Source: Amphibalanus amphitrite
Taxonomy: Eukaryota; Arthropoda; Thecostraca; Balanomorpha; Balanidae
NCBI RefSeq assembly: GCF_019059575.1
Contig: NW_024881985.1
Coordinates: 248,001 to 312,000 of the forward strand
Reading direction: 5' to 3'
Length of the DNA: 64,000 nucleotides
Under the pieces are notes generated by a model. The model saw nothing but the letters and a program-made list of their open reading frames with translations, ran no database searches and was not told where the DNA came from. Shown one piece after another: positions 5,425-59,628 of this stretch (its first letter is position 1; every line of letters begins with the position of its first letter). A program made the translations under genes and the position numbers.

Positions 5425-6303
5425 GCTCGAATATCCGAGGGCCCTTTGAGGCCTTCTGAGCGCCACTTGACGCCAGCTGAGGGCCATTTGATGTCAGCTG
5501 AGGACCCTTTGAAGCCTGCTGAGGGCCCTTTGAGGCCTTTTAAGGACCCTTTGACGCCAGCCGAGGGCCCTTTGAGGCCCTCTGAGGGCCGTTTGACACC
5601 AGCTGAGGACCGTTCGACGTCATCTGAGAGCCCTCTGACACCAGCTGGGGGCCTTCTGACGCCAGCTAAGTGCACTGTGAGGCCTTCGGAGGGCCGTTTG
5701 ACTCCATCTCATGGTCTTTTGACGCCCTTCAAGGCCTTCTGAGGGCCCTTTGACCCCAGCTGAGGGCCCTTTGAGGTCTTCGAAGGGCCATTTGACGCTA
5801 GCTTAGGGTCATCTGACGCCAGTTGAGGGCCCTCTGACACCAGCTGGGGGCCTTCTGACGCCAGCTAAGGGCACTGTGAGGCCTTCGGAGGGCCGTTTGA
5901 CTCCATCTCATGGTCTTTTGACGCCCTTCAAGGCCTTCTGAGGGCCCTTTGACCCCAGCTGAGGGCCCTTTGAGGTCTTCGAAGGGCCATTTGACGCTAG
6001 CTTAGGGTCATCTGACGCCAGTTGAGGGCCCTCTGACACCAGCTGGGGGGCCCTCTGACGCCAGCTAAGGGCCCTTTGACGCCTTCGGAGGCGTTTGACG
6101 CCGGTACAGGGCCCATTGGCGCCTTCTGAGGGCCGTTTGATGTCGGCTGAGGGCCCTTTGATGCCTTTTGAGGGCCCTTTGACGACATCTGAGGGCCCTT
6201 TGACGCCACCTGAGGGCCCTTTAAGGCTAACTGAGGGCCCTTTAAGGCCTTCTGAGGGTCCTTTGACGCCAGTTGAAGGCCCTTTGGGGCCTTTTGAAAG
6301 TTG
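5425..6303. repeat. 21-bp minisatellite with a 199-bp higher-order repeat
   Basis: The unit is close to GAGGGCCCTTTGACGCCAGCT (21 bp; first half and second half vary independently). Because 21 is a multiple of 3, long frames open on both strands (EGPLRPSEGRLTPA-like on plus, KGPSEGLKGPSAGVK-like on minus). A block starting at 5640 is repeated almost exactly from 5839, a period of 199 bp, showing a recent segmental duplication inside the array. The array lies wholly within the large hAT element. The frames are probably by-products of the repeat length. Confidence 0.9.
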
Positions 6304-6348
6304 CTGAAATTTGACCTCTATCACCTTCCCCTTGACTGCGCTGGACAT

Positions 6349-6509
6349 TGTTTAAATATCCATTTGAGTAGGATTGCGGGTTTTTTGAAGCGCTGAGTTT
6401 TTGCAGCGAGCTTTTTCTCTTAGGGCTTGCGAGATACCCGCGGAAACACATATCTCTTCAGCATTGCGCGCCACACAGGAATGCGGCTGATTCACGTGCT
6501 TTTGTGAGT
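6349..6509 (+). repeat. Repeated module, copy 1 (short form)
   Basis: About 160 bp from the word TGTTTAAATATCCATTTGAG to TTCACGTGCTTTTGTGAG, nearly identical to parts of 7040-7385 and 8340-8690. It lacks the upstream TCTAGACGTCCGAT-type block in the same arrangement and the downstream CTTCCCTCCGGGAG extension. A related word (TTGACACGGGACAAACACCG) appears separately at about 6690. Confidence 0.8.
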
Positions 6510-6831
6510 GAGGTACCCCCAGTTGGAAGATTCGGCTGTAGAATTGTAGTTTTAAATACGTAGTTTGACGTAGATCTCGGAAAAGTGAGATACGGCCAGA
6601 AATGAGTGTGGGTACCTCCGTCCTGAAGATTATGATCGGCGCCGATTGAAATAAGTCGCCGTGCATATCTCGGCTTATTGACGACCGATTGACACGGGAC
6701 AAACACCGATCGATACCAAATGGCTCTGGGGGGGGGGGGGGATAGAGTGGCAAGTTTTTCTACCCGACGAACCCGGAATTATCCCGAGGGTGTAGGGGTG
6801 GGAGTAGAGTCGGGGGAACAAGGGGGGGGGC

Positions 6832-7040
6832 GAGTACAAGTACCAAGCAAGTACCAAGTACTTTCGCAAGTACCAAGTACTTTTACAAGTACCAAGCAAG
6901 TACCAAGTACTTATGCAAATACCAAGCAAGTACCAAGTACTTTGGCAAATACCGAGTACTTATGCAAATACCAAGCAAGTACCAAGTACTTTGGCAAGTA
7001 CCGAGTACTTTGGCAAGTACCAAGTACTTTTGCAAGTTCA
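6832..7040 (+). repeat. AAGTACC minisatellite
   Basis: Tandem copies of GCAAGTACCAAGTACTTT and close variants (about 19 bp, some with a 10-bp inserted half-unit). A degenerate remnant with the same words recurs at about 8230-8340, just before the third module copy, so the minisatellite and the module have been duplicated together. Confidence 0.85.
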
Positions 7041-7385
7041 GCAAGTTTTTCGCCAATATCGAAGCTTCTAGACGTCCGATCGTCACCGGAAAAACACCAT
7101 TCGATCCCAAATTTTCTCCTTAATCATTTTATGGCCAACGCGACGCGGAGCGAGCCAAGATATCTTGTTTAAATATCCATTTAAGTAGGATTGCGGGTTT
7201 TTTGAAGCGCTGAGTTTTTGCAGCGAGCTTTTTCTCTTAGGGCCTGCGAGATACCCGCGGAAACACATATCTCTTCAGCATTGCGCGCCACACAGGAATG
7301 CGGCTGATTCACGTGCTTTTGTGAGCGAGGTGCTTCCCTCCGGGAGAAATTCGCCGTCCCCATATGCTTAACACGGAGCCGAGCG
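7040..7385 (+). repeat. Repeated module, copy 2 (long form)
   Basis: It begins with a CGAAGCTTCTAGACGTCCGAT block, continues through GCGACGCGGAGCGAGCCAAG and the 160-bp core, and ends with CTTAACACGGAGCCGAGCGG. It matches 8340-8690 over the whole length and copy 1 over the core only. Confidence 0.85.
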
Positions 7386-7790
7386 GCGGCTGACAGGTGG
7401 CCGGCTCTCGGGAGATCGGCAGCCGACACTCGAAAAATCGACAAGCCGCCGCTGAATGCGCGTGCGAAGATGAGCGGGGTGCCGCCGTTCCGGAGAGACG
7501 GCTGGAAAATTCCACCGGCCGGCCCGGCGGCAGTGTGTTGGGCGGCGGGCGGCGGGGCGGGGTTTCCCCGTCCAGCGGCCGGCAGCGCTGAGCCGAGTCG
7601 TTCCCACGGTCTGGCGGCCAGCTGGGTGGGGGCGGGGTGGGGAGTGGGGCGGCCGATTGCCAGCCGCTTCTCCACGGGTAGGTGCTGCCACCTGCGCAGT
7701 AGTTCCACTGGCGGCCGCCAGGCCCGTGTGCGGGCCGTGCGCGGTAGTTCCGCCAGCGGCCGCCAGAGGTCACGCGCGTCGTGTCTAACC
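7386..7790. other. GC-rich unique block inside the large hAT element
   Basis: Very GC- and CpG-rich sequence between module copies 2 and 3. Overlapping frames exist on both strands, up to 194 codons on minus, as expected from GC-rich DNA. No domain is recognisable. It could be a captured fragment of host DNA. Confidence 0.3.
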
Positions 7791-8339
7791 TGACGAAGCT
7801 ACAAAAAGTTAGATAACTTTGATAAGAGGGACGGTAAAGCCACAATTCCAACGCTGAATGTTGGGCAAAAGCAAAGGGATCCAACACAGCCATCTGTATT
7901 TACTGTATTTACCCTTTTCTGTCAGCGATAAGCCCCAGCAATCGCACCGCTGTAAAACTCGCAAGCTGTTCACCGTGCAGGGTATTGCATTATAACCACC
8001 CACCGGCTCTCTCAACGTATGTGTAATCGCTTAATAGGTAGGACGCTAAAACAAGTTAGAAATGATAGGTAGGTGAAACAAAATACAAATTGGGAACAAG
8101 TATAATTCAAATTACAAATAATTCATTGGAACAAATCAAAATTATCTGAGACCAAGGCAAATTCGCAAAGTCATTGATCGACTAAAGCCGTCTGATTTAA
8201 ACGTCGGAAAGGAACAAGTTCTTTGCGGTATTTAGGCAAGTAAATACCAAGTACTTTGGCAGGTTTTCAGTACATTAGCAAGTTTTCAGTACATTACCAA
8301 GTAGCAGGTGATACAGCAAGCTGGCAGGTACTTTGGCAG

Positions 8340-8690
8340 GTTCAACAAGTTTTTCGTGAATATCTAAGCTTCTAGACGTCCGATTAACACGGGACGAACA
8401 CCAATCGATCCCAAATTTTCTCCCTCATACTTTGATTGCCAAAGCGACGCGGAGCGAGCCAAGATATCTTGTTTAAATATCCATTTGAGTAGGATTGCGG
8501 GTTTTTTGAAGCGGTCAGTTTTTGCAGCGAGCTTTTCCTGTTAGGGCTTGCGAGATACCCGCGGAAACACATATCTCTTCAGCATTGCGCGCCACACAGG
8601 AATGCGGCTGATTCACGTGCTTTAGTGAGCGAGGTGCTTCCCTCCGGGAGAAATTCGCCGTCCCCATATGCTTAACACAGAGCCGAGCGG
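8340..8690 (+). repeat. Repeated module, copy 3 (long form)
   Basis: Matches 7040-7385 from the TCTAGACGTCCGAT block to the AGCCGAGCGG end with scattered substitutions, and is preceded by remnants of the AAGTACC array. Beyond the shared end, the two copies continue into unrelated sequence. Confidence 0.85.
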
Positions 8691-10268: not shown

Positions 10269-13200
10269 ACTCTCACTTCGGGACCAGTCGAATTGGACCG
10301 ACCGACGTACGGAGTACCACAGTGATGCTAAGACTGACCGGGCGGTGACCTGGAGCGTCCCTCGTGCCTCCCGCTCCCCTCATAATTCCCTTCTCCTCCT
10401 GGGAGGCCCCCTTCCCCTCTCCTCCTGGGCGCTCCTCGAACCCTCACCCGACGGTCTGAGGCAGCTACCGATGACCAGTAGCCAGTGACCAGTGGTCAGT
10501 GACCGACGATCGGTGACCGGCGTCTGACCGTTGACCGACGCGCCGGCGATCAGTGGCCACCGTGCTGTGCTACGACGACCAGTGACCAGTGGCCGGCGAG
10601 GCGCCCCGACCACCGACGTGTCTGTTTCATGTGTATGTGTGTGACGTGTGTGTGGCCTTGGGAGTACGCCCGAGGGTGTCATCGGCGCGCTCCGCCTCCC
10701 CCACCCCGCCCAGATCTCCCCCCAATCATGACCACCTCTGTTATATTGGCACGGAGAGTCTGCCGACCCAAAACTGCCGACCCACAAATCCAACACTACC
10801 TTCGACCCTCTAGCCCCTACCCAAGGACCGCAACCGCCAACCGGCGACCCGGACTTGTGACCACTAAACCCGGCTTCAAGGGTCAATCAGGCTGCTTAGG
10901 GGTCAGGTAACCCCAAAACATTGTTCACCTTGACCCGGCATTCAGTCCACCCAGCCAACCACTGCACTGAAGCTCAAATTAATCAATTTACCCGCATCAT
11001 TCAAATGAAATTTAGCAGATTGAGATTCCCAGCACTTCAACTAACAAAAATGCATTCCTGTGTTCGCCTCTAGCTGGATCCGTTTCCAGCTATTGCGCTG
11101 GCATGGGCGCAATAAAGGTGACGACATTCCACTTCCCAGCGCAGTCCCTCCTCACTCAGTAGTCCTGAGTCCATCCTTTCTCCCGAGTTTACTGTCTCGC
11201 TCCGTCCCTCCGTCCTATGCCGCGGACCGCGCGCCGGTCAGTGAGAGTTCACCCCTCTCTGCGTGACGTCACGCCCCCCCCCCCCCGGCCGCAGATGGTG
11301 CGTCACTGCGTGCGTGTGACGGTATTTTCCACTTGTTTATGCGCGCCGTTCGCCGCGCAGGGAAGGCCGGCTGGCCGGTGGGGCGGAGAGGGTCACTGCA
11401 CCCTTTCTCGCCTACTGCCCCACCGCGCGGGGAGCGGTGAGCGTTCCCGTACCGTGGCTGGGACGCACCGTCCCACAGGGTAGCTCCCTGCGCCGCGGCC
11501 GGCCACGCACACAGCGCCCCAACGTAAACAGTTTCGGCCCCGCTCGCACCGACCGTCTCGGCGCCGGAATGGTGCGCTGCGGTTGAGACTGCGAATACTC
11601 GCTCCCGCTCAGTTGAGAAGTTTTCAGCTGGCTTTTCGCTCCTAGCCACTCTGAAAAGTGTTCTCGGCCGCCTGTCACCCTCTCCGCTGTGCAAATTTGA
11701 ACAGAATGGCGCGCGAATGTCCGTCGCCTCGACCCAGAATGCGTCGGAGGGGTGCGTGTGAGCCGCCGCCGCCACCACCCGCTCTCCCCTCCCCATGCGC
11801 GCGCAAACAGGGTATGCGTCGGTATTTTTGGCGGCCCGGCCAAGGGACGACCGGGCCTCCTCCATTCAGTCTGCGGAGGGGAGGGGATACCTCAGCGGGT
11901 CGGTCCAGTGGCTGGGAAGGGTAGGGGGCACTGTCCGGCTAGCTCAGACCGAGGGGTCACCACACTGCCCCCAGAGCTCCCTCCCCTACCCCGGTGCCTA
12001 CCGGATGACCGTGGAACAGCTGCGGCGGCCCCATTGAGCCGTGTGCCGACGGTGTATCGCCCGTGGCTGCCCAGCGGCGGGGGTCAGCCGGCCAGTCAGC
12101 CGGCCGGTCAGCCCGCAGACGACCCTGAGCAGGCCGTTCACCGCTCTCCCAGCGGCGCTCAGCGGCTATATAGGTCAGCGGCCGGCGCTCCGACGCTCCG
12201 GCGCGGCGCTGACCCCGCCGCGCCGCCACCGCCGCACTTTCTCCTCCGCGTGACGAAAGCGGCGCGTGACCGCCATAGCGCGGCCGAGCCGGCGCACCGC
12301 TCGGCCGGGTCGGGATGGTGCGCGCGGGGCGGGACGAGAGGGAGATAGGCTGTGCCGTGTGAGGGAGATCGGGGAGGGTTAGGAATGTCGGGTCAAAGCG
12401 GAGCTAGGACACCGCTTTGAGCGGGGTGGACACTGGGCAGCCTGCCGTTAGCTGGAGTAGACGGTCGTACCGTCTGTTGCATACTGACGACTGATGTCGA
12501 AACGCTCAGCGTCAGGTCATAGCCACCTGACGTCACTACGAATCGCCAATTCAGCACTCAGCAGCCAGCTGACGCAATTCATGGAGATCCTGCATTAAGC
12601 TAAGCCTTGTTGATAGCAAGAAACACGTCCAAAACCCGACCTCATTGAAACGTTACTTATTTGGCACTCATTTCCTGCCCTTCTCCTTTCGCTCATTTCC
12701 TGCCCTTCTCCTTTTTACGGGTTTATCTGTCGAGAATTCCTACAACGGCCTCACTCGTTTCACTTTCCTGCTTACCGCTTCCCAGTTTAAAGTTTAAACC
12801 AAGCTTCTTATGTCAGTGCCTTGCAACTCGCTGCATATCCATCCAATCATCATTCCATAACATTCCGTCCCATCCCGTCCTATCCCACTCAGTCCTACTC
12901 CTGTCCCGCCCCGTCCCATCCCACCGGCGCCCTCTCATCTCAGCCATCCCTCGACCCATTTCACTTCGGCCGCGGGGCGAAGCTGTTTGTGTTCTCTAGC
13001 GGCTCAAACCACTCTGGGGGCTGTTTTTGTGTCACACCGGGCGGCTCTCGGATCGGCCAGGGACCGGAGCCGCCGCACAGTGTGGCCAAACACCAGTTTA
13101 GCGCGAATTAAATCCCAGCGCTGCTCGGATCCGTTGAAAATTGTTTCCTGGTTTAAAAGTTGACACTTAAACCTATGTGAGACCTTTTACGATGCATTAT

Positions 13201-13284
13201 AAATGCTTGCTGACATATAATGGCATAGTTCCGCCTCTAAAAGTAAGGAGAACTAGCTTACGACGGGTGATGTGCTTACCAGGC
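10269..13284. other. GC-rich region with CpG island; no gene established
   Basis: From about 10440 to 10610 there is a degenerate GACCAGTG-word repeat. From about 11100 to 12400 the sequence is strongly GC- and CpG-rich, includes a CGTGACGTCACG palindrome at about 11263, and has a poly-C run at about 11275. Frames up to 198 codons overlap on both strands without recognisable motifs. After 12650 the sequence becomes pyrimidine-rich with a CATCCCGTCCTATCCC-like simple repeat. This resembles a promoter-proximal island, but no exon can be assigned. Confidence 0.4.
12167..12173 (+). promoter_or_regulatory. Possible TATA box in a CpG island
   Basis: TATATAG stands in otherwise very GC-rich sequence (GCGGCTATATAGGTCAGCGG), which makes it conspicuous. 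No clear initiator lies 25-30 bases downstream and no coding exon follows, so this is a weak promoter candidate. Confidence 0.2.
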
Positions 13285-13553
13285 CAGGGCTGTGAAGTCG
13301 ATGGAGTTACTCCGACTCCGACTACGGCTTTCAAAAGTCAATTTCAACTCTGACTCCGGGCAAAACTGTCGACTTATACGATCGACTCGGACTCTGACTC
13401 CGCAGCCATGGCAAGTCCACGCAGTCGATGGATTTTCGGTGACTCAGACTACGAGTCTTGGTCCGGATTCCAAAATCGATTCCGATTCCGACTCTGACTG
13501 CAGGGTCAGAACTGTTGACTCCGAACGACTCCGACTCTGATTACGAAATCCTG
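13285..13553. mobile_element. GACTCCGACTCCG-rich element, copy 1
   Basis: It starts CAGGGCTGTGAAGTCG and continues through many GACTCCGACTC words to a terminus reading CAGGATTTCGTAATCAG on the minus strand. It shares start motif and internal words with 23905-24297 and 28483-29180. No target duplication is evident for this copy. Probably a decayed non-autonomous hAT relative. Confidence 0.55.
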
Positions 13554-13836
13554 GAATTTAACCGCAAATAAGAGGCATAAAATTGTGGGTCCCAGCAATG
13601 ATGGGCATGTTAGGAGGAGGAATCGTTTACGAAATTCCCATCATTTCTCTGGTAAATTCTTATGATTGTCCAAAGTTTGCTTGAAAAAAAATCAACATCT
13701 AATTATGTTTCTGTGTGAATGTTCCTGGTGAAGCACATGAATCGGTAGATGGTTGCTGAAATACACGCACCGATAGGACTGAACCTCAGCAATAAGAGTA
13801 AAAACAAAGACTTACACCATAAGCACCTTCATGTCA
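13554..13836. other. Spacer; nothing recognised
   Basis: Short AT-rich interval between two repeats, with no coding frame. Confidence 0.5.
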
Positions 13837-14438
13837 TTAACCCTCGCCCGTATTGTTTTGCTAGCCGCGAACGTAGGTCGGGCCAGGTCAGGTCAGGCCA
13901 ACCAGTCCTGCCGGGTATTCATAAAATAGGTGTCAACCGCCAGTGACAGCTTCGTTGCATGTTACGAATGCACCAAAACTTCTTCCTAAATGTTCAAATG
14001 TTTACTTAATCCGAAATCAGCTCCAAAAACTAGTCTGATAACATGTAAAACTAAAAAAGGTGAACCAAGGTCATCAAAGGTCATTGAACTGACCTGACCT
14101 TCAAGTGATCTTGACACCGACCATAATGCATGGGACCAACATCATAATATCACATGTTTAGACGCTTGAAACCACGAAAAGACTGCAAACGCGCGGCTAA
14201 TGCAAGCAAACATACGCCCAATCGCGCTTCCGGCCAAACATGGTCTCGAGAAATAGGTCACAGGTCAAAGGTCATTGGGTTCAGGGTCGTGAAATTTAAT
14301 GGGTAGGTGTAAAATTGATAAACTCGAGGGTACTGAAAGTTTCGTCGCGATCGGCCGCTTTTTACATGAGCTTTTTGCGAAAAACCGAGAGGGGTCCTTT
14401 CGACCCCCACCCTCACCCCCTACATGGGCGAGGGTTGA
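13837..14438. mobile_element. piggyBac-like non-autonomous element, copy B (602 bp)
   Basis: The left end reads TTAACCCTCGCCCGTA. The right end read on the minus strand is TCAACCCTCGCCCATGTA, so the first 13 bases of the inverted repeat match apart from the target base. The element is bounded by TTAA on the left and TTGA (one change) on the right. A TTAA target and termini beginning CCY are hallmarks of the piggyBac superfamily. The interior contains clustered AGGTCA/TGACCT half-sites and no transposase. It is homologous to 75-639 and shares short blocks with 34728-35917. Confidence 0.75.
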
Positions 14439-15636
14439 AAAATTGTCAAGATTTATTCATTGGCGACCGTATTCTGCACTATAACAAGTCAGAAATACAG
14501 CGGTTGAGCCATCCGCGTAACGTTACGGAGCCGCCGCCGCGCCCACCCTGTAGCCGGACCTCCCCGGGCGGGCCAACCCGATACGTTCAAAGCTGAGCCA
14601 AAGGCCGGGGGGCAGGTTGGGGCAGGGTTTCTTGAATGGATCATGTCCAGAAAAGTGTGGCGAATCTTCTCATAGTAGATTTGGCGTGGAGTTTTTTGGC
14701 CATTTTCTTATATCTCTACGTTTTTAAGATGGACAGTGTTTTCAGGGGATGTTTGAAAAGGTCATTTTCAAATGAGCATAACTCATCGGTTAGTCCAAGG
14801 ATACCTATAGAATTCGGGTATACTATCAAATATAGGCGCAGTAGTCATATGCCACTCCAATTATTTCCAAACCTTTCCGACAATTACGCCAAAATGTGTT
14901 GTAAACATGACGCGGGTTTTCGACGATTTCAGCACAGCCGGGACCGGCATTGCGTATGTCCACTTTAGCTAGCTTTTTGGACACCGAAAGGATGACATTG
15001 AACCAAAGTATTGTGATATTGACATACTTTGGACAATTTCCTATCGACTGACAGTTATAAAAAGTCAAAATTCCAAAATTCGTTTTTTGATTAAATTCGC
15101 GCTAATCTGGCGTTTGGCCACACTGTGCGCCGCTGCCGCTGTTCCTAAGGTCTATGGTGATGGTGGTGATACTGAAAACGCTGGTGATCTTGATGACGCC
15201 AGCCTGCAGATGTGGCCGGGTCCGCACTTAGCCCGCTCAGTCTCTGCCGGTCCCGTCAGAACAATCCATCGCCGGAGATGAGCGGTCAAGGGTGTGAATC
15301 CAGCCGCCTGTCCAGCAGGATCGTGGGCACCAGCGGCAGATTATGGGGTAAACCAGCAGCTCTGCCGGCCTAGTGTGGAGTAAACCGACAGCTCTGCCAG
15401 CCAGGCGCGACACATGCCAGTCTTATTCCGTAAGCTTTCTTGTTCTGCGACATTTTTACCAGAAGCGTTTTACATAAAAAGGAAGTGTCCGCAGACTTAA
15501 GATCTTAAATCTGGGATCCTGTTTCATGCCGCCTGTCTTTTTGCTGCCTCTGTGTGGCTTATCTCCCGGTGAGGAACTTTCTCTGATCAAAGGCATCGTG
15601 GTCATTTTTTTCTGGATTGGTCACGTATTTGAGTGA
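14439..15636. other. Spacer; no gene established
   Basis: AT-rich around 14640-15110, then GC-richer. A 110-codon frame at 14636-14968 and a hydrophobic-start frame at 15087 were considered. The latter opens with TTG and lacks an ATG. Neither has a recognised domain. Confidence 0.4.
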
Positions 15637-17955: not shown

Positions 17956-17964
17956 GTCCGTCGG
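17956..17964. repeat. Left 9-bp target-site duplication of the MULE
   Basis: GTCCGTCGG, repeated exactly at 26447-26455. Nine-base duplications are typical of Mutator-superfamily insertions. Confidence 0.92.
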
Positions 17965-18008
17965 GCGTATTTTGAATTCACCATAGGGCTCAGCCACTCC
18001 TAGCGGAA
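17965..18008. repeat. MULE left terminal inverted repeat
   Basis: A 44-bp arm beginning GCGTATTTTGAATTCACC and ending TAGCGGAA. It differs from the right arm at positions 33 and 40 only. Confidence 0.92.
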
Positions 18009-18455
18009 AATTCTGGGGAATTCTCCCCCTGGCGACAAATGTGGGGAAATGAGCATAAATGTGTAAGTCCCTAGAAACTAATTCTTCCCAAGAAGTCCCC
18101 CACTACATTAGTGATGCAAGTTTGACTGGGGTATATTAGAGATGCAAATTACATGAAAAGATGTTATATTTTATGTTAAGATTGAGAAACCGTGCTTATA
18201 GTGGAAGGTATGTTAATGATGCAAACATATTAGCGAACTGGGAGTGGTCACTGGTCACCTGCTAATTTTGCGTCATTCCGCTAACGCTAGTTGAGCCAGT
18301 TATTGCTTGAAGCGTCATAACTTCGGTATAACTATACATCATTATTTGTTGGCTATTAACTGAGATCTGATTTCTTTATCTTTTAAAGAAGACTTAATAT
18401 AAGAGAGATGGTAGCATCGTCTTGGTGTCATATCTGATCAAAGCGGCCATCCTCC

Positions 18456-18890
18456 AATGTCCCAACTTACCCCGCGGCGGGGGGTCAGTTGGGCCAAGGC
18501 CTAAGGCAAGTTGGTACACTAGGAAAAACAGTTTATCTAAACACATTTTTATTCATGTTTCACATGAACAATCATCGCTAATCCATGCGGGCATTAACGA
18601 CAAAACACAAACGTTTGCAGTACTCCTGCGGCAAACAAAAAGGCACACACAACGACACTAGAAGAGAATATTTTCACAGCAAGAAAATCACTTTTGGTAC
18701 CTGAAACACATTTGTAGCGATTATTAACAGCACTTACCTCAGCACGCGCCGACACCACGTTGACAAACAGACGGCGTTACTGTTCATGTACAAAATAAGT
18801 TTGAACGCCAACTGTCGAGAAGTATTGGAAATATCCCTTCCGTCCCAACTTACCCCCCCCCCCCCTGGCACCAACTTGCCCCGGTCACCC
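18456..18890. repeat. CCAACTTRCCCC motif cluster in the MULE 3' flank
   Basis: GTCCCAACTTACCCC occurs at both ends of this interval in direct orientation (from about 18457 and 18842). An inverted pair, GGCAAGTTGGTAC near 18507 and GCACCAACTTGCC near 18867, lies just inside. Long poly-C/poly-G tracts adjoin both. It may be a small nested MITE or a subterminal repeat set of the MULE. Confidence 0.45.
18548..18553 (-). terminator. Possible polyadenylation signal of the transposase gene
   Basis: AATAAA on the minus strand about 360 nt after the transposase stop codon (18909-18911). It is the right strand and distance for a 3' UTR, but the hexamer alone is weak evidence. Confidence 0.3.
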
Positions 18891-18908
18891 CCACTTCACC
18901 TCTATCAC

Positions 18909-25625
<6,717 letters not shown>

Positions 25626-25655
25626 AAAGTTAGTGGCGGACTTGTACCTATTCAA

Positions 25656-26402
25656 TATTTAATATCAATATAGTAACAATGGTTACACGACTCATAATCT
25701 TCACTTACAGCATTTCTTAAAAATTACCTATGTAAAGATTATAATTCTGCTGGTGATACCTATAGCCATGTGGGTAAATGTCAAGTTTAAGTCCTAAGCA
25801 GATTTCATGGATAATTTTTTCATATTCTTACATTATTTGGCCGGTACACATGGAGGTCCCCGCTTCAAAATTAGTTAATTTTGAATTTAGTGTTTCCGAC
25901 CATTATTTGACATCCTGAATCCAAAAATGATACTTATATGTCTCGTAACTAAAAGAAAAACATAATCAAACCTGAACTAACCTTACCTTTTCACCTATAA
26001 CCTACCAATCTACTACCTACAAACCTACAATGCAACCTAAAACTTACAGCCTAACGTAACCTAAAACATAATTTTTTTGCTGTTACAGATTTGTATCAAC
26101 AGCGTCACAGTTATAGTTAGGACCTAAACTTGACATATACCTGTATTTCTTGCGCCCTAACCCACAACAACAGCAACAACAACTGTATTTCTTGCAAAGA
26201 ACATGCACCTAAAATGGAAATACTTATTAATCACCAACCTTTTCCAGCATCTTGAAGCATATATAGGCCTCCGCAATAAACGAGCAAACATGAGACACGA
26301 AAAAGGCGCTTTGGATTAAAAGGCGCGCCAGTGGCATCGGAAGAGCTGCCAGATCGGCTGAAATCCCTAGCGCGATTTCGCTTTTTTCCAAGGTGCCTAG
26401 AA
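25656..26402. other. MULE 5' flank: probable promoter/UTR of the transposase gene
   Basis: AT-rich sequence between the presumed first coding exon and the right terminal repeat. It has CCTACAACCTA-type simple repeats (26010-26060) and a CAACAACAGC run near 26165. No other frame is convincing. The transposase promoter should lie here or in the terminal repeat, but no individual box is clear. Confidence 0.4.
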
Positions 26403-26446
26403 TTCCTCTAGGAATGGCTGAGCCCTATGGTGAATTCAAAATACGC
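26403..26446. repeat. MULE right terminal inverted repeat
   Basis: The inverted partner of 17965-18008, ending GGTGAATTCAAAATACGC on plus. Confidence 0.92.
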
Positions 26447-26455
26447 GTCCGTCGG
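26447..26455. repeat. Right 9-bp target-site duplication of the MULE
   Basis: GTCCGTCGG, identical to 17956-17964. Confidence 0.92.
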
Positions 26456-26461
26456 CTAGTG

Positions 26462-26480
26462 TGACGTCACAATGACGTCA
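26462..26480. promoter_or_regulatory. Twin CRE palindromes next to the MULE
   Basis: TGACGTCA occurs at 26462-26469 and again at 26473-26480, centres 11 bp apart, followed by a CACGTG E-box at about 26494. TGACGTCA is the consensus site of CREB/ATF bZIP factors. A GC-rich stretch follows, so this may be a promoter-proximal region of a host gene not visible here. Confidence 0.5.
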
Positions 26481-34727: not shown

Positions 34728-35917
34728 TTAACCCGGCCGGGCCCGGGGGGTAATCCCAACCACCGCAGCCCGGGGGGGGGCGTTTTTCGCCCCCCCTGTC
34801 TAACTCCGTAAATAAGGGAGCTACGGAAACAAAAGCGATACCAAACGAAATTTCCTTACGAGACGATTCTAAAGCACCTAAAATTTTTGACCTCAGGTCA
34901 ATTTTCAAGGTCAGAGGTCAAGGTCAAAGGCAAAAACCGGCACATGTGTAGTGATCTCAAAGTAAGCCTTCTAGAGGACGGCAGGCTGCATCAAACCGGC
35001 AAAATTGGGTGTCAAACGAAAGAAGAGAATCTGAGGATTCCGAAAATGTGCTTAAAATTAAAGGTCAAGGTCAAGGTCACGCTAAAAATTGACCTCAAAC
35101 TTGGCACTTTTTCGCACATCTTGCGTGCTAACTTCCAAGATGTTTTGAAATGTTTTGAGGCTTATCAGTTCCCTATTTGTGGTTCATCCTACGATACAAG
35201 GCTGCTCAAAGGTCAAGGTCACAGAAGAGTATCCCTGCTAGAGGCTATTTCACTGATTCAAGTTAGTAATAATAAATAAGACAATTTTGCCGTCCAGAAG
35301 CTCTAAATGAAGGCTTAGAGGAAAATAGATGCCAGATTCGTGATCAGCGGGTAAACATCCATCATAAATGACCTCTCATGTGTCAAGGTCAACCAGAGGT
35401 CATTCGAGGTCACATGAGGTCAACATAAAACTTGACCTTTTCCGAACAAAATATACATCATTCGACGCGGCTTGACAAGGCGAATGCGATGGTACCATTG
35501 CCGTAGCTCTAGGACCGTTTTTGTCGAAGTTATTTGCGAAAAACTAAAACCACATTTCGGGGTCGCTGACCTGACCTCTGACCTCAGGTCACCAAAACTA
35601 TTTTTATATTTTTGTCTAGGTCAAACGCTACACAACCGTGCTCGTAATTTGTCTTTATCTCTAAAACTCTATTTTTAGCAGCTATTTGAAGTTTGCGTCT
35701 GTGACGCCGAAATTTGCCGTGCAGGGGTCTAGAAAAATGGACCTTGTGACGTCATCAATGGGGCTAGGTCCAAATTTTTTACTTCAGAAGATGTCAAATT
35801 GATGGGAGAAAAGGTACTGAAAGTTTCGCTTTCCTATCCTTAAGCGTTCGGGAGCTATCGCAAATATTCGCCAGGGGGGGCGAAAAACGCCCCCCCCCCC
35901 GGGCCCGCGAGGGTTAA
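34728..35917. mobile_element. piggyBac-like non-autonomous element with hairpin ends (1,190 bp)
   Basis: It is bounded by TTAA at both ends (34728-34731, 35914-35917). The left end reads TTAACCCGGCCGGGCCC and the right on minus TTAACCCTCGCGGGCCC. Just inside each end is a palindrome GGGGGGGCGTTTTTCGCCCC (34772-34796) and its inverted partner (35874-35900). The interior has roughly twenty AGGTCA/TGACCT hexamers by hand count, several as AAGGTCAAGGTCA, and no transposase frame. It shares GGTACTGAAAGTTTCG with the elements at 75-639 and 13837-14438, so the three are related families. Confidence 0.8.
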
Positions 35918-46130: not shown

Positions 46131-49100
46131 TGACATTGAAATGAACCCGAATCAGCTAATGTAGTGTATCTAATAGTGCGCTTTTAGTGGCGAGCTCAAG
46201 AGGGTTGTTACGACACAAAATGCATTGCTTGCTATTCTTCATCTCCAAAATCCAGCACCAAATGCAGGACCGCAAATTATGCAAGATTGCGGGTTCCATG
46301 CTGGCTCACGACCGCGTTCCGTTTGGCTGCCGGCGTTTCCACAGCCTTCTTAGTGACATTGTCGATGAGGACGTCCCCCCACCCCCTTCTGCGTCGGTCA
46401 CCTGCGCTGGTGCCGCGTGTAAAACAGGGGAACCCTCTCAGCGGGCCAGACGGCACTGTCCAGCACACGGCCGGTCCACACAGCTCACCGCTGACACTCA
46501 TTTGTAGCCAATTTGGCCGCTATTTTAGAGGTGTCAAACACGGCGGGAGTGCCGGAATTTAGGGACGCGTGCTGACGCCGTTTTTGCAGCTGCTTTAAAT
46601 GCTGACAGCCTGTTGGTCCATCGGCAGAACGGCAGCGTCATGGCTGGAACCGCCGCCGCGCGACGAACGCCCGGTGGGCTCCAATTAAAACCAGATTAAC
46701 CTTGAGTGGTCGGGCATTATGGACGCCCTGGCCATTTGTTGTCGAAAACAATTATGAGTGGCGCTGGAATGCAGCAAGAAGGTACCTATGTTGAGTTCGA
46801 GAATGACCGGTGGACGAAGTGGTTTCGCAACGGACAAAAGTGAAAATGGAGTTTCGTCATATTCGGTTGAAATGAGAAGTGGTTTAACGGATGCGCTGAA
46901 CGGCTTGTCAATCTGTTGGTAGAAGAGATTGCGTATCTCAAGTTCCACGCAGGCTTCGAGAGTAGCTTGTTACGTACTGAAGAAATCGAACAGCTGAAAA
47001 TTTGCTATAGTAGTTTTTTAATGTTCACGATCAGTTCAAACCGTTTAATACTCATGAGGTCAATTTGAACTTATTTACATTTTTATCCTCGTCATCATTC
47101 AGTTCCCATGCAAGCTTATGATGCCTATTAGGACTTTTGCAATTGCAGTGATGTTCTGCCTCTGCCTCGATTTTTTTTTTTTTAGAGCACTGGAAGGTCG
47201 ATGTCGCTTGTCATCACGCATCTGCCCACACCTTAGCGGCTGGGCCGGGCGGCACACACTGATCATGCCTGGCCTGCAGTCCTGCCGGCTCCGCTATCCT
47301 GACCTTGTTTGTCTGGTGCGCGCGGTCGCGTGTCGGCCACCCCACCCTGAGCCCTGCTCCGTGACCTGTCCCACGCCAGGCGTCAGTGGCGTGCTGCTCC
47401 GCTCGTGACAGACGGAGCCCGCCACTGCAGTGAGAGTTTCACCGGCCGCCAACCGACGCTGCGCGGTCAGCTCGGTCGGCGCAGCAGTGCAGTGGTGGCC
47501 CCACATGGGTCAACTGCGAGTATACCTCGGCTTCTGCTCACCGAGCCATATACTCAGCGGCCAGTGGGGACATCTCGTCTGTGGTAATTTCTGAGCTGTG
47601 CTGATGCACATATGGTTAAAGTTGTGTCGCTATATTCGGCTGCACCATGGTCTCGGTTCTGTGCACTATGCAGTGTGCAGTGTGCAGTGGGTTAGAGAGG
47701 TCATCATTTTACTCCTCCCTCCATCACAGCAGCAGCCGAGCTAAGATCTGCTACGTGTGCGTCCTTCTGCGCGCACCCCCAATCGGCATACATATATCCC
47801 CATTCCTTACTCCTCAGCCTATAGCCGAATAGCCTTGGCTCATCCCTGCCTGTGACGTCATTCGCTCTGCACACTGACGTCACGTGCGTGCACGCACTGC
47901 GTGCAAAGTGCACTAGGGGTGGGGGGAGGGACTGCGCGTGGCCGGCGCCGCTGTCATCTGCCCACGCAGGCCAATCTGTCTGCAGCGCGGCGGTAGGCGC
48001 CGCCCGGCCGTGCAGTGTGGTGGGCGACCGAACCGGTGCGGAGGGAGGCTGATCCGCGGCAGGTATCCTCCCGGTCCTGGCTGACGAGAGAACCGGTCGC
48101 AGTCGTGGTTACGGGGATTAGCTGCGTGATGCTCCTGTGTCGGATGGTCGCTACGACTGCCATTCTGAGAGTCGTACTGCCGTGCTAATTTCGGATTGGC
48201 ATGGTGGCCGTCGTTTTTTTTTTGTATTTGTTTAGTATGTGACATTATGTTTAACGAAACGTTATAGGTCCAAGCTTATCGGTGCATCTGTAGAGCTATA
48301 GCTCTTTTCTACAGAAGTACCTATCTCTTTGACCTATCGCCGTGCTCGTTGCTATTTGTCTTGCTACGAATGAAAATGACATCATACCTCCCAGTTTGAC
48401 CGCGTGGGTATCACTGAGTCGGTTCCGAAAATGCCTCTGGCTATTCCAGGAACACTTGTAACTTGTTTGTTCTACTTTCTCGGTAATGCTGCTAGTGTTG
48501 CAACACCTCAGTATTCTCAGACCTAAAGGAGGCTTCCAGCAATCCGTGGAATCCCAGGACTCATGGCTCGAAGGTCACCTTCTGCCAGATTTGGAGGATA
48601 ACTGAACGTATGGAGACAGCGTGTAGAATGTGTACTCGGACCGGCTAAAACTGACTCAGTAAATCCAATTGATAAATTATTTTTATAACTAGCAAACCTG
48701 ATAGACTGGAACCTCACCGAAGACTGGCCGTGAGATCTGAATATTCTTGGTAATGTCGTACAGTATCTGTTGCAATCACCGCACGTTTGGGAGCAATATC
48801 TGCCCGTCCCCGTCAGTAACCGTTAGCAATGAGCTGCTCTGACTCTGCCGTCCATTCCATCTCATGACAGCATTGCGGGGATGTCGTCATCGACTCCATC
48901 GTGTCATGGTCGATCCGACGACACGCGGCGCTGTGCGACCGTCAAAAGCGACACAGATCAACCTCCTCGAAAGCCTTCTTCGCTGGCGTGTCGGTGCGAG
49001 CACATCTGTCAGCCCTCATTCGTTTTCCATTTCCGAGGCGGCTTCATGGGATCATCAGCAGTGCGTCAGTGGCTTAGAATGATGCTGATGCTGGCGGGGG

Positions 49101-59416: not shown

Positions 59417-59628
59417 CGAGTCTGTCTTAAAAGTGCCGCGCAAAGTAACGGTGGACCCATCAAGCCTGACCGAGGAAGGACTGCTAAATTTGAGTCACCG
59501 AAACAATGGATATCCTCGTCCATTCTCCAGGTCAATTGGTTCGGTTACTTTCAAATTATAGCAGGCCCTTCCTCGGTCAGGCTTTATGGATCCACCGTCA
59601 CTTTGCGCGGTACTTTTAAGACAGACTG
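59417..59628. mobile_element. Tc1/mariner-type palindromic MITE, copy 2 (212 bp)
   Basis: It is flanked by TA (59415-59416, 59629-59630). The right arm on minus starts CAGTCTGTCTTAAAAGT and the left starts CGAGTCTGTCTTAAAAGT. The arms pair over about 68 bp. It is in the opposite orientation to 19766-19977 and most positions agree, so both belong to one recently active family. Confidence 0.85.

Follow-up and report, generated by a model that had tools for sequence, protein, structure and literature searches.

A complete, probably autonomous Mutator-like transposon with a predicted nine-exon transposase gene in the barnacle Amphibalanus amphitrite

A 64,000-nucleotide stretch of the Amphibalanus amphitrite genome (assembly GCF_019059575.1, contig NW_024881985.1, positions 248,001 to 312,000 of the forward strand; hereafter the window) very likely carries a complete Mutator-like DNA transposon of 8482 bp, whose intact predicted nine-exon gene apparently enables it to supply its own transposase. 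Judged from its sequence, the element is probably a further member of the known Mutator-like element (MULE) superfamily, structurally complete and autonomous. Its notable feature is the presence of eight introns, two of which split the catalytic domain. In all other respects, this is an unremarkable transposon from a well-known superfamily.

The element is delimited by two inverted ends of 44 nt each, which match at 42 of 44 positions and are identical over the outermost 32 nt. An exact 9-bp duplication, GTCCGTCGG, abuts both ends and is excluded from the element length. The boundary features are as follows.

17956 to 17964, plus strand: target site duplication, left copy GTCCGTCGG, exact match to 26447-26455
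17965 to 18008, plus strand: left terminal inverted repeat, 44 nt, 42/44 to the right end
26403 to 26446, minus strand: right terminal inverted repeat, 44 nt, 42/44 to the left end
26447 to 26455, plus strand: target site duplication, right copy GTCCGTCGG, exact match to 17956-17964

Scanning the whole window for inverted repeats (arms of at least 18 nt, at least 80% match, at most 12 kb apart) yields 19 pairs, 11 of which are at least 24 nt long or have a duplication of at least 7 bp. The exact 9-bp duplication at the outer ends is unique to the pair at 17965-18008 and 26403-26446. In 20 first-order Markov shuffles of the sequence, no pair with an exact 9-bp duplication appears, and the longest repeat is 28 nt. 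Further copies of the first 18 nt of the terminal repeat are absent from the window when up to three mismatches are allowed, and for its first 32 nt, the closest ungapped match elsewhere differs at 11 positions. MULEs have target site duplications of 8-11 bp and terminal inverted repeats of 14-500 bp (PMC6446971). The 9-bp duplication is within the former range. The 44-nt ends are within the latter range and shorter than the ends of more than 100 bp described as typical in PMC5225508. Adjoining the right duplication, two TGACGTCA motifs lie 11 bp apart at 26462-26480; the window contains eight TGACGTCA in total, including another pair at 47853/47875.

The recognisable coding signal of the element is on the minus strand. 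There, nine predicted exons form a 2400-nt frame encoding 799 residues, with no internal stop and one terminal stop. All eight exon joins are in phase, and the introns comprise seven of the GT-AG and one of the GC-AG type. The coding frame lies wholly within the element, 0.8-0.95 kb from each terminus. The predicted gene and its candidate signals are as follows.

26259 to 26265, minus strand: candidate promoter, TATA-like TATATAT (motif match only)
25521 to 25625, minus strand: exon A, start codon at 25625, with in-frame stops upstream
25007 to 25153, minus strand: exon B (gene model)
24337 to 24458, minus strand: exon C, followed by the GC-AG intron (gene model)
23333 to 23605, minus strand: exon D, end of the putative N-terminal zinc-binding domain (C141, H146, H148), no Pfam match
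22311 to 22660, minus strand: exon E, first catalytic aspartate D280 (gene model)
22007 to 22185, minus strand: exon F, catalytic D349, C370-x2-H373 and the Pfam MULE match (PF10551, E=1.2e-8 on its open frame)
21187 to 21443, minus strand: exon G, W445 and catalytic E465, in the IS256 profile match (residues 338-476)
20340 to 20493, minus strand: exon H (gene model)
18909 to 19721, minus strand: exon I, last coding exon, with the stop codon, the SWIM-like motif and a low-complexity C-terminus (gene model)
18548 to 18553, minus strand: candidate polyadenylation signal AATAAA, about 355 nt past the stop codon (motif match only)

The splice sites were picked by eye for phase and consensus, and the gene model is a prediction. 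When eight GT or eight AG dinucleotides are drawn at random from the element, none of 20,000 sets reaches the mean scores of the chosen sites; this control is biased in that the sites were hand-picked and one GC donor was scored against GT sites. Two of the joins are supported independently. The F/G join is crossed by the IS256 profile match, and the E/F join puts two aspartates 69 residues apart, as in the Muta1 transposase of Aedes aegypti. The catalytic stretch from D280 to E465 is distributed over exons E, F and G in proportions of about 28%, 32% and 39%, and the two introns that interrupt it are 125 and 563 nt long.

The predicted protein contains a MULE-type DDE transposase domain. In particular, against a gathering cut-off of 27.6, the Pfam MULE family (PF10551) scores 35.8 bits for the open frame containing exon F and 32.2 bits for the complete protein, and it turns up again when the frames of the element are scanned; the match spans only profile positions 63-98 of 99. 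No other Pfam family matches the whole 799-residue protein at an E-value of 1. In an NCBIfam profile search covering 578 of the 799 residues, the bacterial IS256 family matches residues 338-476 with E=1.7e-7, its 30.6 bits being far below the family cut-off of 150 bits, and IS1249 matches with E=3.1e-4, far under the model cut-off. These two matches are informative at the superfamily level only. A SWIM-like CxCx8CxH motif starts at residue 556; Pfam SWIM gives E=0.12, below its cut-off, and is not reported on the whole protein. Near the N-terminus, a C/H pattern ending in HNH, which we liken to WRKY/FAR1-type fingers, has no Pfam support on either the open frames or the whole protein, and no FLYWCH match is found in Pfam for the protein. 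In a low-confidence single-sequence model of exon E (mean predicted local distance difference test score 69), D280 is in a strand of a unit of three strands and a helix, and this one-exon model has no informative fold match.

The counterparts of the Muta1 residues D, D, H, W and E are D280, D349, H373, W445 and E465. In yeast, alanine substitution of Muta1 D214, D283, H307, W401 or E419 abolishes activity, as does alanine substitution of the non-conserved residue E373 (PMC5225508). The five residues of the predicted protein occur in the MULE order and with MULE spacing. The D-D distance is 69 in both proteins (D280-D349 and D214-D283), and the D-H distance is 24 in both (D349-H373 and D283-H307). 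The W-E distance is 20, compared with 18 in Muta1, and the D-E distance is 116, shorter than the 136 in Muta1.

Taken together, the ends, the duplication, the gene, the Pfam MULE and IS256 profile matches and the residues shared with Muta1 uphold the identification, made in an earlier note on this stretch, of a complete Mutator-like transposon. The 42/44 terminal repeats and the exact duplication claimed there are confirmed, and the open multi-exon transposase is present as a prediction. The further claim that the element is probably autonomous is supported at the level of anatomy.

These parts suggest how the element would have moved. As read from the sequence, it inserted at GTCCGTCGG and duplicated those 9 bp. 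The single minus-strand gene is predicted to be spliced from nine exons into the 799-residue transposase, whose N-terminal zinc-binding domain and C-terminal SWIM-like finger may bind the 44-nt ends. The DDE site (D280, D349 and E465), with H373 and W445 as helpers, would cut the element out and join it to a staggered target, and fill-in by host repair would produce the 9-bp duplication. Two small repeats entered the introns, before or after the arrival of the element at this site, leaving the gene unbroken. The repeats within the introns are as follows.

19766 to 19977, no strand: palindromic miniature inverted-repeat transposable element (MITE), TA-flanked, in intron H-I, with a sibling at 59420-59628 (90% identity)
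21688 to 21939, no strand: CT microsatellite array of about 250 bp, in intron F-G
23905 to 24297, no strand: hAT-like MITE of 393 bp, in intron C-D, with 8-bp flanks GTAAAAAG / GTAAAAGG (7/8 match)

The alternative that deserves most weight, although we do not favour it, shares the Mutator-like identification and differs on activity alone: the copy is complete but no longer mobile, being silenced or carrying damaging missense changes, and keeps its ends and frame owing to a recent arrival. The two nested MITEs and the 250-bp CT array in the introns, the mismatches at 2 of 44 positions between the ends and the absence of a further copy of the end from the 64-kb window are consistent with such a state. 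Because two MITEs are nested in its introns, the copy, or its source lineage, is not brand new. However, the 799 codons contain no stop or frameshift, and all five of the Muta1 residues considered have their counterpart. If both end mismatches (2.3% per arm) post-date the insertion, a gene under no selection would stay stop-free with p ~0.15, or 0.0007 when 0.1 frame-breaking indels per substitution are assumed, which favours recent arrival or recent selection. The two mismatches may, however, pre-date the insertion.

It is improbable that the gene is instead a domesticated MULE transposase, that is, a host gene retaining old ends. Eight introns, well-formed splice sites and an unbroken frame would suit a host gene, and several animal groups are reported to have MULE-derived genes of the FHY3 type (PMC10027918), but both ends, the exact 9-bp duplication and the cutting residues are all kept here, and a host gene would need none of them. 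Least probable by far is a composite, with a transposase fragment bracketed by chance between unrelated inverted repeats. Speaking for it, and weighing against a single complete transposon, GTCCGTCGG is locally enriched, with 5 occurrences in the window versus 0.6 expected; the probability of about 8e-6 that two random 9-mers from the window are equal is weakened by this over-representation, whereas the abutment at both ends is unaffected. The composite is difficult to reconcile with a pair that is the sole one of 19 with an abutting exact duplication, with the absence of such pairs from all 20 shuffles and with a coding frame contained between the two ends. A complete Mutator-like transposon remains the reading that we prefer.

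Searches for relatives and for neighbouring genes give negative results. With 656 of the 799 residues as query, one stretch in viral contigs fits a pattern but fails in tblastn, and no relative is confirmed; with 619 of the 799 residues, 15 stretches match in prokaryote genome contigs and none is confirmed. A degenerate DNA pattern for C-x-F-H-x-L-Q-x-x-W-R-W has no match in viral contigs and eight matches in genome contigs; the latter are taken as chance, the best E-value in whole-protein tblastn being 0.42. A tblastn search of plasmids with a 257-residue core gives no match, and a phmmer search of PDB sequences with a 290-residue core gives a best E-value of 0.76, a chance level. The prokaryote, viral and plasmid negatives say little because the element is eukaryotic. 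Within 10 kb on each side of the element, six-frame scans at an E-value of 0.01 report no Pfam domain, but such scans can miss genes: run as a control on the element's own minus frames, they find one exon of nine (MULE). The window contains no transfer RNA according to ARAGORN (bacterial settings) and nothing at Rfam gathering thresholds. No paper on barnacle Mutator transposases or on intron-rich Mutator-like transposases is found in one open-access library, which is not proof of unpublished status.

Elsewhere in the window, a unit of about 2.05 kb at 13078-15125 has inverted ends starting CAGTGTGGCCAAA and lacks a clean 8-bp duplication; it looks hAT-like. A long minisatellite with periods of 21, 42 and 199 bp occupies 5433-6297. 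A 167-bp unit occurs three times (6348-6514, 7165-7331 and 8469-8635), the later copies being 96-98% identical to the first, and a longer repeat pair lies at 6923-7386 and 8237-8690 (85% identity). In addition, there is a dispersed 0.5-kb repeat pair at 80-605 and 13875-14394 (80% identity), and a perfect 27-nt inverted repeat with G/C-run ends about 1.1 kb apart at 34772-35898.

The element, with all its parts on one contig and apparently intact, is useful starting material, since within the literature covered no animal MULE other than Muta1 has demonstrated mobility in an assay. The earlier note had called such elements uncommon in animals. Complete MULEs are indeed not common, but that rarity was overstated and is moderate: a 2026 survey documents 322 complete MULE types in 222 of 4268 arthropod species (PMC13359780). 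Its crustaceans, as given in Table 1, are decapods, an isopod, a stomatopod, an anostracan and a siphonostomatoid. In that survey, tblastn matches had to cover at least 80% of the DDE domain, and the word "intron" is absent from its main text (PMC13359780). Because the catalytic domain is split in three, the present element would be missed by such a search if the separate pieces were left unmerged. To judge from the nine-exon transposase, animal surveys that demand a contiguous catalytic domain may undercount complete MULEs. It is conceivable, if somewhat doubtful, that the element stands for a lineage of intron-rich animal MULEs, with the catalytic domain over three exons, that would be overlooked by surveys needing one tblastn match over 80% of that domain. 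In that case, elements built this way, intact and possibly active, could be widespread yet uncounted. Nine exons are a difference of degree, because intron-bearing animal MULEs (Muta1 and Muta5) are already known.

The Muta families of Aedes aegypti, including Muta1, are grouped with Phantom, group 20 (PMC6446971). They have in common with the element a DDE site with conserved H, W and E, duplications of 8-9 bp, and introns (PMC5225508). Muta1 has two exons and Muta5 three predicted exons; Muta1 is 3198 bp long, with complex ends of 145 bp and a 504-residue transposase (PMC5225508), whereas the element is 8482 bp long, with simple 44-nt ends and 799 residues encoded by nine predicted exons. 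An N-terminal FLYWCH finger is present in 13 of 14 Muta families and a C-terminal SWIM finger in Muta6 (PMC5225508); in the element, the SWIM-like motif is present and Pfam gives no FLYWCH match.

Among surveyed arthropod MULEs, elements range from 1.4 to 10.0 kb, ends are typically 20-95 bp, transposases have 313-1136 residues, and the D-D spacing is 60-76 in all clades but Ghost (PMC13359780). The element is within all four ranges, although most surveyed MULEs are 2.5-5.0 kb long. There are 115 residues between D349 and E465, slightly under the 120-135 (gaps counted) of eight of the twelve clades. Ghost (MULE group 7) was considered and rejected, as it has 84 residues, including gaps, between the aspartates (PMC13359780), compared with 68 between D280 and D349. 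Sub-group Sm of the flatworm MULE group 16 differs in that FLYWCH is listed for it and none is detected in the element, but, likened by description only, it resembles the element in its 9-bp duplication, its ends of 42-46 bp and its SWIM finger (PMC6446971).
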